DNA of 32,982 nucleotides. Origin: an uncultured bacterium (GTDB taxonomy: Bacteria; Cyanobacteriota; Vampirovibrionia; Gastranaerophilales; Gastranaerophilaceae). The translations under genes were made by a program, and so were the position numbers. The notes under the pieces were generated by a model, which did not search any database, had not been told where the DNA came from, and saw only the letters and a program-made list of their open reading frames with translations. Location: NCBI GenBank assembly GCA_902766105.1, contig CACXCI010000045.1, positions 1 to 32,982 on the forward strand, given 5' to 3'. This document shows positions 16,266-22,973 of this stretch, one piece after another; position 1 is the stretch's first letter; the number at the start of each line of letters is the position of its first letter.

Positions 16266-17705
16266 CTATATAAATGCTTTAGCCATTCTTAGAGTAAAAA
16301 AGCCATGTGTTTTTCCATTCAGAGCATTTCTCCATGCACGTTGCAAAAATCTTTTATCAGCTCCGTCATATAATTTTATTGTTTCTTCGTATATTGGTTT
16401 CATTTTTACAAGCGCAGATTTTTTGTCCTCAGCAGACAAATCACTCATTGACATTATAGCTCTGTAAATATTACGCTTTTTTAATCCCTTACAACCAGTT
16501 CCCAAAATTGTATCAACAGCAGCAGATACATAATCTTTTCTTTCCAAATCGGATTTTAACAAACTTGTAAGAGAGAAATTTCTGTCAAAGGGTTCAACTC
16601 CTTTATTAAACACTATATCAATTATCCCTGTTTGAACAGATTTTGGAGCATTTTCAAAGTTTTCTTTGCCCATATAAACAATTGCATCTATTTTTGCATC
16701 TAATATGTCCTGAGCTAATAGTTCATAAGCTTGAGATTTGGTAATTTTGGTATTTTCTGATAATACTTTGCCATTAATTTTGCTTGTATGCCCAAAACCT
16801 ATAGTCAAGTAACCTTTTGGATGTTTTTCATCCGCCACGCCGTCAAAATATGCCCTCAAGTCGGGTTTGCTGTGCCTCCCTTCTATTCCTATAAGAATAT
16901 CCTTAATATAATGCTTATCCAAACCTGTAACTTTCACAACATCTTCAAAACTGTTTACAGCTCCGGATTTCACGAAATATTTACCGGGGATTTTAACTTT
17001 AGAGCCTACAGGTAAATTCTCTGAAAAATCTATAGTTGGATTGGTTTGTTTTAAGCGAAAATAAGACACTGCGCATTTATTAGCAATTGAAATTCCGTTT
17101 TGAGAATTTTCCGAAACAGTAAATTGCCTTGGCATCCTGTAAAGAATATCTTTGTGAGAAACCCAGTATACGCCACCATCTGTTGTTTTACGGATTTTAC
17201 CTAACTGCTCCGGTTTTATGACTGTCTTATTTGCGATTTGAGACATTTCAACAGCGCTTGTTTTTGAACCAAATCCAAACAACATATTGGATTCACTGCC
17301 ATGACCATTTGTAACGTGTGTAGAAATTGTATTGTATTTTGAATATAACTTGGCTTTATCTGCCTTATAACCCGGTTGTAAAAACTCTGACACAGCTTTT
17401 ATAAAACCGCCTTTTTTATAATTTTTTATAGCTTTTTTTAAATCAGCTTTACTTAATACAATATTATCACCTTCTTCACTCACTCCGTTTGCAACAGCTT
17501 TAAAGGTACGAAGTTGATAATTTGTCATTCTTATTTTATCGGCTGTTCTCCACTCTCCTTTAATTTTTTCATAAATTTTCAACTTCCCGCTTTCATCGGC
17601 ACGATATATTGAACCATTGTTTTCAAAAGAACAACCTTGCTCAATTTTGGCATCGTATACTTTGCCTCTTGCTAATAAATTAACACTTATATAGTTACTA
17701 GTCAT
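16266..17705 (-). CDS. GH24 (T4-type) lysozyme-like muramidase with long N-terminal region
   Basis: Residues ~260-400 contain the T4/P21-type lysozyme pattern: IEGRH, AYFDG, GYLTIGFGHT, giving the expected catalytic E275, D288 and T301. Then FENAPKSVQTGIIDIVFNKG...FDRNFSLTSLL matches the late helices. The gap between Asp and Thr is longer than in T4. This domain cuts glycan strands of peptidoglycan. The first ~255 residues are unrecognised; K and S rich; residues 232-262 (LPVGSKVKIPGKYFVKSGAVNSFEDVVKVTG) resemble a LysM-like linker. No signal peptide is visible, and no holin or phage gene is near. A host cell-wall enzyme, perhaps for appendage assembly, is more likely than a prophage remnant. 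Confidence 0.8.
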   Translation of the reverse strand: MTSNYISVNLLARGKVYDAKIEQGCSFENNGSIYRADESGKLKIYEKIKGEWRTADKIRMTNYQLRTFKAVANGVSEEGDNIVLSKADLKKAIKNYKKGGFIKAVSEFLQPGYKADKAKLYSKYNTISTHVTNGHGSESNMLFGFGSKTSAVEMSQIANKTVIKPEQLGKIRKTTDGGVYWVSHKDILYRMPRQFTVSENSQNGISIANKCAVSYFRLKQTNPTIDFSENLPVGSKVKIPGKYFVKSGAVNSFEDVVKVTGLDKHYIKDILIGIEGRHSKPDLRAYFDGVADEKHPKGYLTIGFGHTSKINGKVLSENTKITKSQAYELLAQDILDAKIDAIVYMGKENFENAPKSVQTGIIDIVFNKGVEPFDRNFSLTSLLKSDLERKDYVSAAVDTILGTGCKGLKKRNIYRAIMSMSDLSAEDKKSALVKMKPIYEETIKLYDGADKRFLQRAWRNALNGKTHGFFTLRMAKAFI

Positions 17706-17848: not shown

Positions 17849-17857
17849 TGGTATAAT
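17849..17857 (+). promoter_or_regulatory. Extended -10 promoter close to a start codon
   Basis: TG-G-TATAAT (17849-17857) is an extended -10 element. The predicted start, near 17864, falls about three bases before ATG 17867, and there is no ribosome site between. This suggests a leaderless mRNA for the 1202-residue protein. Confidence 0.55.
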
Positions 17858-17866
17858 TATGCTGTT

Positions 17867-20800
17867 ATGGAATGTCCAAAATGCGGAGCAGAAATTAATA
17901 AAAACGCAATGGTTTGCCCTAATTGCAAAAAGGTGCTTAAAATCGTTTGCCCAATTTGCCGAACAGTTAATACACAAAATGTTTGTAAAACTTGCGGCGA
18001 AATTTTGGTTACAAAGTGTGCCAAATGCGGGAAAATTAACCTTTTAAAAAACAAGAAATGTGTAAAATGCGGATATAGTAATGAAATTAGTGCAGTTTTG
18101 GGCGAATCTAACACAGACAGTTTTGCAATTGTAAGAATAGATTTTCCCAATAGCGACGTCGTTAAAGCAAAACTTGGTTCAACCAAACTATTTCAAAAGT
18201 TTAGGAAAAAATTTGATGAGTTGATTGCAAATTACACAAATTCAATCAATGTAAGACGACAAGTTGTCAACAATGATATCTACATAATCCGTTTTAATAA
18301 AGATTATACCCTCTCTGCATCGGCAAATTCCGCTATAAAAGCAACTATCAGTCTTTTAAACATTATAACCAAATTAAATGTTAAACTTCTCAAGAAAAAA
18401 GGGGTTGCCCTAAAATGTAATTTTACCATCATGAAAAGAGATGCTGATAAAAACCCTTATGATATAGATTCAAAATATCAGGCAAATATGGTTTATCAAA
18501 GTTCACCAAAAGAAATGAAAGCTCTTGATTCTTTTCAGGTAATCACAGATGAAAGTTTCTATGACGTTTATCAAGGTCAATATAAAATGGAAGCATTGGG
18601 TTCTACTTTGGTCGATGGGGTTATGAAAAGATTTTATGAAATGGATATGAAAGAGTTTGTCAATATTGGCGAAATTTTAAGAAATGAAGCCCTTAAAGAG
18701 CAGGATGATGAAATAGAGATTCCTAATTTTGTCCAAACTGCATTAAACAATCAGGAACAAATTACTCAAAATACATTGAAAGAAGAAAACGAATTAACAG
18801 ATGACCAAATTTATGATATTGAGATGATTAAATTTGAAGAAATCAATTGTGAATTTATAAAAACCGAGAATATAAATGTTTTAGATTGTATTGCGCATAC
18901 CCTGCAGCAAGTACCAAAAGGTATAATGGCAATAAAAGCATCTAATATTTATCAACCTTATACCCTAAAAGTTTTATCCGCAGTAGATCAACTTGGGATA
19001 TATGATAATGTCATACCGATAACCTGTCATAATGACATGAAATATTCCCCATATTCATTTTTCAGAGATTTAATATCGTCAATTTTTGGCTATACAATCT
19101 CGCAAAAAATGTTTGACAGCAATGATTTTTCAATGTTTTCCAGCGTTGATAATTCCGGATTGGTAAAAGATTTAATTACTCTCACTCAAAGACCAATGCA
19201 AAATATGGAAGAAACCAGATTAAAATATTGCGAAGTATTTTTATCATTACTACAGGCAATTCCTAACACATTGATTTATATAGAAAATTTTGAAAAAATT
19301 GACTCCAGTTCATTATTTGTTCTGGAACAACTTTTTGACCATTTGGATGAATTGAATATAAGCTATTTAATTTCGTATGACAAAGATTTTTCATTACATA
19401 AAAAAATGCACTTCTTATTGTCAAGACCATATTATACAGAAGTTTCTCTAACATCTACTCCTTTTGAAACAATTATAGGGTTAGATGTGGATTTCTATAG
19501 AAATGTATTAAATGATTTTTATTTTCAAAGAATTGCAAAATATGCTTGCGGCAGCACCTTGTTTTTAGATTTTGCAATCCAGTATCTTGTTGAATCCGGA
19601 GTTTATGAATATACGGAAAACTCCATTATGATGGTAAATCCAAAAACCATCATAATGCCGTCAGGATTGGATAAATTAATTAAACGCAGATTGAATTTGC
19701 TAAAAGATAACAAGACAGCTATGAAATTTTTAACAATGCTTGTACTTTTAGGTACAAGAATTGATGAAAAAACAATTGTATCACTTGGAATAAAAGATTG
19801 GGAAAAAATAGGCGAAGAGCTTGCCGGAATGGGATATATTTATTCTTATAATAATTGTATTTATTTCTCGAACTACAACATTATACGACAATGCCTGCTT
19901 GAAGTCGTTAAGCCAAATGAAATAAAGGCAATCGCAGAGGAATTATTCGAGAAAATATACATTGAAAATATGCCCGACCCTGTGAAAGCATATCTATATG
20001 ATGTTGCTCAGAATAGTGAAAAAGTTATTTTTGAATGGGAAAAATTAGCAAATATCAATCTTTCAATGGGAGATTTTACATCATATCTGAATTGTTCATC
20101 TGAAATCCTTAAATCGCTTGATAAATATGCAACAAACTGGTCAGATAATGATTTACAGAAATACAAAATATCTTTGTACGAAAATGTTGCAAATAATATG
20201 TATGAATACAATCCTGATGAAACCAGAGAACTGGCGGAAGAAACTCTTGTAAAATTGCAAAATAAAGGAGATTCACAGCGCTACATAAACTTGTGTACAA
20301 AAATGATTCAAGGGGCAATGGCACATGGGGACTATTTATATGCTATGAATTTAACCCATAGTGTTATGTCCTCATTGGAAAATTCCTCAATAGATCCGAC
20401 ATCTCCTGCTTTCAATTTATATTATTTATTGATGTCGGTTATATATGTAAAAATATTATTCAATATCGGAGCGTACAGTGATTGCTTAGATATTGGCTAT
20501 AATGTATTAAATGTACTGGATGCAGAAAAAATAAATTCTATCAATTATTCTGATTCCGTTGTAACAAGAGATGATTTTATATTCCTAATAACAGAATGTA
20601 TCGGATATATTGCATTAGTTGATATCATAACCCTTAAAGAAGATGTTACGGAATTTTTGGATATAACAAAGAAACTGTTACCGTTTATTCCTGATTCATA
20701 TTCAATTTTTATACAACTTCAAAATCTGATAAAAGGTCAAAGTTCGTCAGTCAATGCCAAAATGATAGGTAATGACATGTTTTCCGGAATTCTATATCAT

Positions 20801-21475
20801 ATAATCAATGCCTTTACTAAATATAAAGGAAAACCAAACGAATTTGCTCAGGAAATTTATAAAGCAAAACTTATTGCCCACGAAAGTATGATGTTTCAGT
20901 TTGAACTGTTCGCCGATTTAATGATTGGTTATGCCTACGTTGAATTAAACTCGTTTGTTAAATCCTCTGCAATACTTTCTAAAATAGTTAAATACGCAAA
21001 TCTCAAAGGTATGCACGCTATTTCACATATTGCATGGTATATAATGAGTATTTTATATATCAAAGAAGGGAAATTTGATATTGCATACGGAGTTTTGAAC
21101 AATTCTGACATCCAAATGGAGAAAAACGGTATTACCAGCAACTATATGACAATGCTGAATAAAGTCAATATGTATAAAGTTCTGATGTGTACAAATTCAA
21201 CAGAACAAGCTCAAATATGTATGAATCAAGCATCTGTAATTGTTCAAAAATATAATCTTAATTTTAATCTGAATATTGACATTAAAAAAATTCTGAAGGA
21301 AAATGCAAATAGGATAGTTGAGCCATTACAACATAAAGAACAAAATAAAACTTTTGAACAAACAGGCTCAAATATTCTTCAATACCAAGAAGAGAGTGTA
21401 TCAGATCAAGGAAACGAAAATTCCGTAACTGAAAATGATATTGATATCGTTAATCCAAATGAATTTTTTTCATAA
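17867..21475 (+). CDS. Zinc-ribbon, cyclase-like, STAND-ATPase-like, helical-repeat regulatory protein
   Basis: 1202 residues. Residues 1-72 carry six CxxC pairs (CPKC, CPNC, CPIC, CKTC, CAKC, CVKC), enough for three zinc ribbons. Residues ~80-270 follow the class III nucleotide cyclase fold (FAIVRIDF..., NDIYIIRF where active enzymes have GDxxxxxF, QVITDESFYDVY). Most catalytic residues are missing. Residues ~310-600 match the AAA/STAND domain of large cyclase regulators: Walker B-like TLIYIENFEKIDSSSLFVLEQL is kept. The Walker A place reads IMAIKASNIYQPYTLK, with no GKS/T. From ~640 to ~1130 are helical, TPR-like repeats. The chain looks like a scaffold or sensor derived from an adenylate cyclase/ATPase regulator. 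No signal peptide or membrane segment. It ends 52 bases before glgA. Confidence 0.7.
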   Translation: MECPKCGAEINKNAMVCPNCKKVLKIVCPICRTVNTQNVCKTCGEILVTKCAKCGKINLLKNKKCVKCGYSNEISAVLGESNTDSFAIVRIDFPNSDVVKAKLGSTKLFQKFRKKFDELIANYTNSINVRRQVVNNDIYIIRFNKDYTLSASANSAIKATISLLNIITKLNVKLLKKKGVALKCNFTIMKRDADKNPYDIDSKYQANMVYQSSPKEMKALDSFQVITDESFYDVYQGQYKMEALGSTLVDGVMKRFYEMDMKEFVNIGEILRNEALKEQDDEIEIPNFVQTALNNQEQITQNTLKEENELTDDQIYDIEMIKFEEINCEFIKTENINVLDCIAHTLQQVPKGIMAIKASNIYQPYTLKVLSAVDQLGIYDNVIPITCHNDMKYSPYSFFRDLISSIFGYTISQKMFDSNDFSMFSSVDNSGLVKDLITLTQRPMQNMEETRLKYCEVFLSLLQAIPNTLIYIENFEKIDSSSLFVLEQLFDHLDELNISYLISYDKDFSLHKKMHFLLSRPYYTEVSLTSTPFETIIGLDVDFYRNVLNDFYFQRIAKYACGSTLFLDFAIQYLVESGVYEYTENSIMMVNPKTIIMPSGLDKLIKRRLNLLKDNKTAMKFLTMLVLLGTRIDEKTIVSLGIKDWEKIGEELAGMGYIYSYNNCIYFSNYNIIRQCLLEVVKPNEIKAIAEELFEKIYIENMPDPVKAYLYDVAQNSEKVIFEWEKLANINLSMGDFTSYLNCSSEILKSLDKYATNWSDNDLQKYKISLYENVANNMYEYNPDETRELAEETLVKLQNKGDSQRYINLCTKMIQGAMAHGDYLYAMNLTHSVMSSLENSSIDPTSPAFNLYYLLMSVIYVKILFNIGAYSDCLDIGYNVLNVLDAEKINSINYSDSVVTRDDFIFLITECIGYIALVDIITLKEDVTEFLDITKKLLPFIPDSYSIFIQLQNLIKGQSSSVNAKMIGNDMFSGILYHIINAFTKYKGKPNEFAQEIYKAKLIAHESMMFQFELFADLMIGYAYVELNSFVKSSAILSKIVKYANLKGMHAISHIAWYIMSILYIKEGKFDIAYGVLNNSDIQMEKNGITSNYMTMLNKVNMYKVLMCTNSTEQAQICMNQASVIVQKYNLNFNLNIDIKKILKENANRIVEPLQHKEQNKTFEQTGSNILQYQEESVSDQGNENSVTENDIDIVNPNEFFS

Positions 21476-21527
21476 AAATACAAAATATCAGTTATAAGAA
21501 TTTATTACGTAACGAAAGAGAGGCAAT

Positions 21528-22973
21528 ATGAAGATTTTATTTGCAGCCGCAGAGGTAGCACCCTTTTCAAAAGCAGGCGGTCTTGCTGATGTTGTAGGCA
21601 GTTTACCAAAAGAACTTGAAAAAGATGCTGAAATTGCAATTTTTACACCACTACACGGTTGTATAGATAAAGAAAAATTCGGAATAAAAGAACTTGAAAA
21701 CTCCGAAAAATGGCTGACTTTTGGGAATTATCCCCAAAAATTTAATCTTTATATAACAAAACTCCCCGGAACAAATATTAACGTATTTTTTGTTAAAAAT
21801 GACTGGTATTTTTCTTGTTTTAATGAGGTTTACCCAAAATACTTAGACCCAAGATATGAACATGAAAGATATATTTCATTTTCTCTTGCTGTTATGGAAT
21901 ATGCTAAAGATCTGAATTTTAGACCTGATGTTATTCATGCAAATGACTGGCACACAGCAATGATTCCAATGTATCTTCACTCAAATTATAAATTTGATGA
22001 ATTTTTCTCAAAAACAAAGTGTGTATTTGAAATCCACAACCTTGCATACCAAGGTATTTGGTTTGAAGATGTTTTAGATTTCGCAAATATGAGAAAAGAT
22101 ATTGTATACAACCAATGGGGTTGCGAACATTATAACAGGGTAAATTGGATGAAGGGTGCAATTTTGTATTCAGATAGGGTAGTAGCAGTTTCTCCAACAT
22201 ATGCAAAAGAAATTTTAGGTTCTGAATACGGTGAAAACATGGACTACACCCTTAGAGGAATAACTTATAAATTAAAAGGAATACTTAACGGAATTGATTA
22301 TACCGTATTTAACCCCAAAACAGACAAAGCTCTTATTTCAAATTATGATGTAAGTAATTTCGAAGAAAGAAAAGAAATAAATAAAAAGGCTGTATGCAAA
22401 TATTTCGGGCTTAAATATAATCCTCAAAGACCTCTTATAGCTTTGATTTCCAGACTAGTTGAACAAAAGGGTATTGATTTAATAAGAGATATGCAAAATG
22501 AATTACAAAATCTGGAAGCAGATTTCATATTTATCGGTAGCGGAAACAAGGATTATGAAAATTTATTTATATGGTTATCAAATAACACACCAAACATAAG
22601 AACTTTTGTCGGTTACGACGGGAACTTAGCAAATCTGTTATACGCAGGAAGTGATTTCTTCCTTATGCCGTCAAAATTTGAGCCTTGCGGCTTGAGTCAG
22701 CTTATTGCAATGAGATACGGTTCATTACCTATAGTAAGAGCAACAGGAGGGTTAGAAGACACCGTAACAGGTTATCCTCTCGATAATTCCAACGGTTTTA
22801 AATTCTGGGCTTATAACGGATGGGATATGCTAAATGCTATCAAATGCGCTTTGTATGTTTATACGGATAAATACGTATTTAATGCAATGAGAAAATCCGC
22901 CATGGAAGCAGATTTTTCTTGGAAACGCAGTGCTGCAGAATATTTAAGAATGTATAAAGAAATTAGCCAATAG
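21528..22973 (+). CDS. glgA: Glycogen synthase (ADP-glucose type, GT5)
   Basis: 481 residues, the normal length. It starts MKILFAAAEVAPFSKAGGLADVVGSLPKEL, where KAGGLADV binds ADP-glucose. HANDWHTAMIP, AYQGIWFE, LNGIDYTVFNP, LISRLVEQKGIDLI, PSKFEPCGLSQLIAMRYGSLPIVRATGGLEDTV follow in GT5 order, with the catalytic E in FEPCGL. It extends alpha-1,4-glucan for carbon storage. AGAGAGG precedes the ATG. No other glycogen gene is in the window; the large upstream protein may be in the same transcript. Confidence 0.97.
   Translation: MKILFAAAEVAPFSKAGGLADVVGSLPKELEKDAEIAIFTPLHGCIDKEKFGIKELENSEKWLTFGNYPQKFNLYITKLPGTNINVFFVKNDWYFSCFNEVYPKYLDPRYEHERYISFSLAVMEYAKDLNFRPDVIHANDWHTAMIPMYLHSNYKFDEFFSKTKCVFEIHNLAYQGIWFEDVLDFANMRKDIVYNQWGCEHYNRVNWMKGAILYSDRVVAVSPTYAKEILGSEYGENMDYTLRGITYKLKGILNGIDYTVFNPKTDKALISNYDVSNFEERKEINKKAVCKYFGLKYNPQRPLIALISRLVEQKGIDLIRDMQNELQNLEADFIFIGSGNKDYENLFIWLSNNTPNIRTFVGYDGNLANLLYAGSDFFLMPSKFEPCGLSQLIAMRYGSLPIVRATGGLEDTVTGYPLDNSNGFKFWAYNGWDMLNAIKCALYVYTDKYVFNAMRKSAMEADFSWKRSAAEYLRMYKEISQ

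Follow-up and report, generated by a model that had tools for sequence, protein, structure and literature searches.

A STAND-type pseudoenzyme without a P-loop encoded upstream of glgA in Gastranaerophilaceae, and its possible tie to a ZorAB-like motor

Domains of the protein P0001

The stretch of DNA analyzed here (the window) comprises 32,982 nucleotides of contig CACXCI010000045.1, assembly GCA_902766105.1, from an uncultured bacterium of the family Gastranaerophilaceae (Vampirovibrionia). Our subject is a gene that lies directly before glgA and encodes a protein of 1202 residues, P0001. An earlier note made from the sequence alone had read this protein as three zinc ribbons, a cyclase-like domain and a STAND-ATPase-like domain with the outline of a Walker B motif and no Walker A, both enzyme-like parts looking inactive, followed by about 500 residues of helical repeats. 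The gene and the parts of its product are as follows.

17867..21475, + strand: P0001 gene, zinc ribbon / pseudo-cyclase / pseudo-STAND / TPR-like protein, 1202 residues (open reading frame and full-length relatives)
17867..18076, + strand: three zinc ribbons, residues 1-70 (Pfam DZR and 12 invariant cysteines)
18104..18658, + strand: class III cyclase fold without catalytic residues, residues 80-264 (structure model and structural matches)
18857..19966, + strand: STAND nucleotide-binding / helical / winged-helix module, residues 331-700 (model and structural matches)
18938..18964, + strand: former P-loop site, now ASNIYQPYT, residues 358-366 (48-sequence alignment, 78 orthologues)
19271..19303, + strand: Walker B outline LIYIENFEKID, residues 469-479 (78 orthologues)
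20012..21286, + strand: helical repeats, MalT/TPR-like by their relatives, residues 716-1140 (alignment with relatives)

Most of this domain reading was borne out. The zinc ribbons match Pfam DZR (2.3e-9), and their 12 cysteines (3, 6, 17, 20, 28, 31, 40, 43, 51, 54, 65, and 68) are invariant across 69 sequences. The predicted structure of residues 1-300 (predicted local distance difference test [pLDDT] 85, predicted template modelling score [pTM] 0.79) resembles class III cyclases in Foldseek (E 1e-6), with a structural Z of 17.2 to Pseudomonas aeruginosa CyaB (3r5g; 170 residues, 2.8 A) and of about 15-16 to many other cyclases. Structure alone revealed this fold, which a sequence-only PDB search with the cyclase region did not find, and Pfam Guanylate_cyc did not match the P0001 gene. 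In the P0001 clade, Arg or Lys occupies the position of the first metal Asp (profile alignment and columns of 48 sequences). The second metal Asp and the transition-state Asn/Arg motif are not conserved there, in a part where the alignment is weak (31.7% probability) and where single acidic residues do occur near both sites. Distant pseudo-cyclases, compared with true cyclases profile to profile, aligned with them over the full length at E 4.9e-4 with only 31.7% probability, and we take this as support only. The cyclase domain is degenerate throughout the family examined: all that is left in members from other orders is an Arg close to the transition-state position, and the P0001 clade has lost this as well.

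The model of residues 300-715 (pLDDT 88, pTM 0.86) has the nucleotide-binding, helical, and winged-helix arrangement of STAND proteins. Its structural Z is 17.1 to Apaf-1 (3sfz, 318 residues), 15.7 to MalT (8bob, 330 residues), 15.6 to the STAND-TPR protein 6mfv, 13.8 to plant NRC1, and 13.3 to a second Apaf-1 entry, the first row outside the STAND class standing at 11.8; Foldseek likewise matches the model to the STAND fold. Again the structure alone revealed the fold, and a sequence-only PDB search with the STAND region did not find it. Where Walker A (GxxGxGK[ST]) would be expected, between strand 353-357 and helix 366-376 of the model, stands ASNIYQPYT, in which a two-residue insertion and Pro364 replace the phosphate loop. 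Among 78 orthologues this loop keeps Tyr362 in 76, Pro364 in all 78, and Tyr365 in 77, and the Walker B outline keeps Glu473 in 77, the following Asn474 in 63, and Asp479 in 78. The YxPY motif is not universal, as other genera have different loops. A His of the STAND winged helix was dropped as a marker because it varies also among members that bear a P-loop.

For the repeats the earlier reading stands in part. The C-terminal 500 or so residues of P0001 align with repeats of its relatives, of which L027 (loci, genomes, and contigs carry our labels L, G, and C) matches TPR_MalT at 1.2e-12, and the profile of the relatives' repeats matches solved TPR chains, but Pfam finds no TPR in P0001 itself.

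STAND proteins are ADP/ATP switches. P0001 would be unable to run such a cycle and would thus act as a fixed-state scaffold or adaptor whose TPR superhelix and zinc ribbons could serve as binding surfaces. It might be argued that the altered loop still binds nucleotide in an unorthodox manner and that the switch is alive, given how strictly Glu473 and Asp479 are kept. However, the loop has no Gly-Lys-Ser/Thr, its insertion and Pro364 stand where the phosphate loop was, and it is not conserved in other genera; we consider a live switch very unlikely.

Relatives, constraint, and the loss of the P-loop

A scan of named genomes identified 80 loci with the P0001 gene (46-78% identity), whose titles are Candidatus Gastranaerophilales, Melainabacteria, Cyanobacteria, or uncultured bacteria, many of them from animal guts. 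Most close relatives carry the gene at full length. Within the window's family, 145 genomes of at least 90% completeness were surveyed, and 110 of them have it. P0001 evolves faster than GlgA (47-78% versus 82-91% identity among full-length matches in the genus). In five comparisons, nonsynonymous divergence (Ka) outside the tail is 0.05-0.19 with synonymous divergence (Ks) near saturation, so every domain of P0001 except the tail is under purifying selection and the protein has been remodelled rather than left to decay. This constraint contradicts the view of P0001 as a decaying relic without function, a view that could draw on its two dead nucleotide sites and its faster evolution but has to contend with full length in most relatives, invariant cysteines, the gene's wide presence in the family, and a conserved promoter. 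We find it scarcely credible.

Searching for homologues that retain the active sites, as the earlier note had proposed, turned up a P-loop (GxGK[ST]) in 24 of 48 family sequences, and the 24 without it are the P0001 clade. Relatives across the class share the zinc ribbons, the degenerate cyclase, and the TPRs, with an intact P-loop in the STAND module. A tree of 53 sequences was built from the STAND module and the repeats, leaving the P-loop out. In it, 22 P-loop-less sequences form one clade (Shimodaira-Hasegawa approximate likelihood-ratio test [SH-aLRT] 100), to which L024 and L025, from two further families of the order, also belong. The P-loop was therefore lost once, at the base of the P0001 clade. 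Ten genomes of the window's family supply the sister group (98), whose paralogues all lack a cyclase domain and in nine of ten cases have the P-loop. The tenth, L228p, has GMGKD instead of GxGK[ST], a second and separate alteration.

One such paralogue is found in the window's own genome (L023:9353-12985, contig C10) as a P-loop STAND protein without a cyclase domain, encoded directly behind a gene for an extracytoplasmic function (ECF)-type sigma factor. All nine family loci fetched show this order of ECF-type sigma gene and paralogue, as do this genome and L026; TIGR02937 matches for the sigma gene stand at 3.7e-20 and 8.2e-18. From the position of the paralogues in the tree, their sigma linkage, and the domain losses, it appears that a single ancestral protein was divided between two copies, one that bears the P-loop and is linked to a sigma factor and one that lacks the P-loop and carries the pseudo-cyclase. 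The deep duplication, the replacement of the P-loop by a conserved loop under purifying selection, and the paralogue that has kept the P-loop and lost the cyclase are new, and we regard them as firm.

The sigma linkage, and the fact that live STAND proteins such as MalT activate transcription, would suit a P0001 that is a nucleotide-independent transcription regulator and binds a sigma factor or RNA polymerase as its sigma-linked paralogue may do. A relative of the sigma gene stands, however, beside none of the P0001-type copies mapped and near no copy of the L024/L025 type, the other neighbours not having been profiled for sigma factors. This explanation is, in our judgement, quite unlikely.

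Linkage to glgA and to ZorA/ZorB-like genes

Two kinds of neighbour bear on what P0001 does. The first is glgA, which, as the earlier note had pointed out, follows the P0001 gene. It begins 52 nucleotides downstream in the window.

21528..22973, + strand: glgA, ADP-glucose-type glycogen synthase, 481 residues, conserved downstream partner (profile match and neighbourhood comparison)
21517..21523, + strand: Shine-Dalgarno-like AGAGAGG of glgA (sequence)

With KAGGL near its N terminus, EPCGL, and a TIGR02095 score of 500 bits, this GlgA looks active. The same genome has glgC; the GH13 branching-enzyme model for glgB (TIGR01515) was not matched in it, and no search for a GH57-type enzyme was made. 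A comparison of gene neighbours supports the pairing. Four of the 80 named loci end at a contig edge after the P0001 gene, and in 75 of the 76 others a co-directional glgA is next, the exception being L144. The coding regions overlap by 1-4 nucleotides in many loci, and the gene preceding the P0001 gene varies. Among the 110 family genomes with the P0001 gene, glgA is adjacent in 77, not adjacent in 30, and undetermined in 3. This split and the ZorA-like table below were counted by eye from listings, and genomes not displayed in the match listings were inferred by comparison with the full genome list. The P0001 gene probably lies on the glgA transcript and would then be co-expressed with glycogen synthase.

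These observations could mean that P0001 binds GlgA and gates it in response to a ligand, such as maltodextrin, that its MalT-like repeats would sense. In favor of such a regulator are the near-constant downstream glgA beside a varying upstream gene, the short overlaps, the absence of both genes from G188, and the resemblance of the nucleotide-binding module to MalT, whose inducer maltotriose can arise from glycogen breakdown according to PMC10427625. However, glgA is found in 142 of the 145 family genomes, including 33 of the 35 that lack the P0001 gene; G228 (L234) has the P0001 gene and no glgA was found in it; no linkage of the two genes was seen outside the window's family in the loci mapped; and the resemblance to MalT is one of fold only. 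Together with the 30 genomes in which the two are apart, these points make a GlgA regulator fairly unlikely.

The second kind of neighbour is a two-gene unit that, in some lineages, is divergent beside the P0001 gene, and whose products match PADLOC ZorA1 (9e-22 to 4e-31, over the N-terminal part of the models only) and ZorB1 (2.7e-50 to 8.5e-56). The ZorA-like gene is divergent from the P0001 gene at 60-139 nucleotides in 15 family genomes of six genera; in a sixteenth the distance is 1274 nucleotides. It likewise stands beside the P0001-type gene at L024 and L025. At L245 and L246 the order is zorB-zorA / P0001-type gene - glgA, which may represent the ancestral cluster. The ZorA-like proteins have 292-317 residues and match the best models over about the first 20-300 of 551-727 positions, so that a long cytoplasmic tail is missing. 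All 11 ZorB-like proteins aligned retain both the membrane-helix Asp and the OmpA motif. Several genomes have a further gene after the pair, which at L298 matches DUF711.

Presence of the ZorAB-like genes agrees with that of the P0001 gene, whereas presence of glgA does not. The ZorA-like gene occurs in 112 of the 145 family genomes; both it and the P0001 gene are found in 109 and neither in 32, which leaves agreement in 141 and disagreement in 4 (Fisher p 1.5e-27, a value that ignores kinship). For an rpoB tree, 48 of the 145 genomes were selected so that the genera were represented; the window's own genome had no rpoB match and is excluded. On this tree the P0001 gene needs 4 changes and the ZorA-like gene 5. 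Supported branches yield 3 independent pairs; on average 1.8 of these show the ZorA-like gene changing in the same direction as the P0001 gene, and none shows the reverse. The tie is a strong pattern resting on few independent events.

Several lines of evidence thus bear on the role of P0001, whose fold and history are firm and whose function we infer. P0001 appears to be a pseudoenzyme derived from a Vampirovibrionia family of zinc ribbons, degenerate cyclase, STAND module, and TPRs. We tentatively favor, at somewhat less than an even chance, the hypothesis that it is a STAND adaptor, blind to nucleotides, that serves an ion-driven membrane motor, glycogen synthesis, or both. Judged by the linkage and co-occurrence of the genes, its main partner would be a short, tail-less ZorA/ZorB-like complex of the MotA/MotB type, and the linkage to glgA suggests that P0001 may tie the activity or place of the motor to glycogen synthesis. 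The zorAB linkage extends to other families and follows the presence of the P0001 gene, and the glgA linkage is tighter in the window's lineage. A more specific form would make P0001 the dedicated, soluble third protein of a machine of gut Gastranaerophilaceae, together with a tail-less ZorAB-like ion-driven motor, that does housekeeping rather than defence work; its place on the glgA transcript would couple motor activity at the envelope to glycogen storage. We hold this form to be doubtful. Weighing against the adaptor hypothesis are the location of the ZorAB-like pair of the window's genome on another contig (C55, L296:7044-8658), the ZorA-like gene without a P0001 gene in G188, G201, and G222 and the reverse in G238, the 3 independent pairs, with which a sign test cannot reach 0.05, and, on the glycogen side, G228 and the 30 genomes without adjacency.

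Promoter, known systems, and other neighbours

The earlier note had suggested that the P0001 gene may be leaderless, and a conserved promoter supports this.

17849..17857, + strand: extended -10 element TGGTATAAT, 9 nucleotides before the P0001 start codon

By script, 69 of 79 loci have an extended -10 element (TGnTATAAT or one mismatch) exactly 6 nucleotides upstream of the ATG, and 5 have it 9 nucleotides upstream. In the remaining 5 the script picked another hexamer, and in 4 of these a one-mismatch hexamer at 6 nucleotides was seen by eye. The script detects a Shine-Dalgarno-like word before the P0001-type gene in 1 of the 79. Judged from this spacing, transcription of the P0001 gene would begin right at its start codon or no more than about three bases from it. 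The window's own genome contains 37 such promoter sites against 11 for the reversed pattern, and among 30 fetched (one duplicate removed), 11 of 15 distinct sites with the 6-nucleotide spacing open a reading frame of at least 60 residues, including a putative UvrC-like and a putative DnaX-like one. Leaderless genes thus appear to be a genome-wide class here. No literature on leaderless genes in Melainabacteria was found among the titles and abstracts searched.

The view that no described system has this layout did not hold, given the class-wide relatives with an intact P-loop and the known cyclase-STAND-TPR proteins; the same note had also missed the paralogue behind the sigma gene and the ZorAB-like partner genes. 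MalT, the Escherichia coli STAND activator with a SUPR/TPR sensor, resembles P0001 in its NOD fold and in the relatives' repeats, but P0001 lacks Walker A, carries zinc ribbons and a pseudo-cyclase in front, and has no helix-turn-helix match (Pfam up to E 1) corresponding to MalT's C-terminal LuxR-type DNA-binding domain. A second likeness is to the TOMM kinase/cyclase fusion TIGR03903, which relative L031 matches over residues 337-750 (1.6e-16; 59.4 bits against a curated cut-off of 705.75) and P0001 does not match up to E 1. Unlike that fusion, the P0001 clade has no kinase and has lost both the cyclase and the STAND sites. The likeness extends to other cyclase-STAND-TPR proteins, of the soluble adenylyl cyclase type.

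Inactive STAND modules within multi-domain proteins have been described as iSTAND of MoxR-vWA ternary systems (PMC7159879). The N-terminal domains of P0001 differ from these, and no MoxR or vWA genes were seen among the window genes scanned, most neighbours not having been profiled. Likeness to Zorya (PMC11890865) lies in the PADLOC matches of the partner genes; that paper reports the long ZorA tail, absent here, to be important for function. No ZorC, ZorD, or ZorE was noticed beside the ZorAB-like pair, where no profile search was made and neighbours at one locus were scanned with Pfam. PADLOC gave no match for P0001, the own-genome paralogue, or L024. Six papers (PMC10427625, PMC11890865, PMC12505986, PMC7159879, PMC6023465, and PMC3787301) cover STAND switching, ZorAB/MotAB motors, inactive STANDs, soluble adenylyl cyclase, and Melainabacteria, and in the parts covered P0001 itself is not described; nor was an account of it found in the wider literature, mostly titles and starts of abstracts.

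Also new are the pairing with glgA, the ZorAB-like tie, and the nearly leaderless promoter; the layout itself is not. A clade that lost its switch once and kept the rest under selection could reveal the purpose of such a scaffold once the nucleotide is gone. The two copies in the window's genome, one with the P-loop and without the pseudo-cyclase and the other the reverse, form a natural experiment in dividing the jobs of one protein. If the ZorAB-like tie is true, a motor of the MotAB/ZorAB type that is core to a common gut lineage would have a soluble partner not described before, and the role of such non-flagellar motors would become directly testable.

Two further neighbourhood observations can be added. 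Upstream of the P0001 gene and divergent from it, at 16266-17705, lies a gene with a phage-lysozyme match and a weak LysM match. In five genomes (L074, L075, L077, L078, and L079) a class III cyclase gene stands convergent directly after glgA; its relative in the window's genome is a CHASE2-domain cyclase on contig C3, which Pfam Guanylate_cyc matches.

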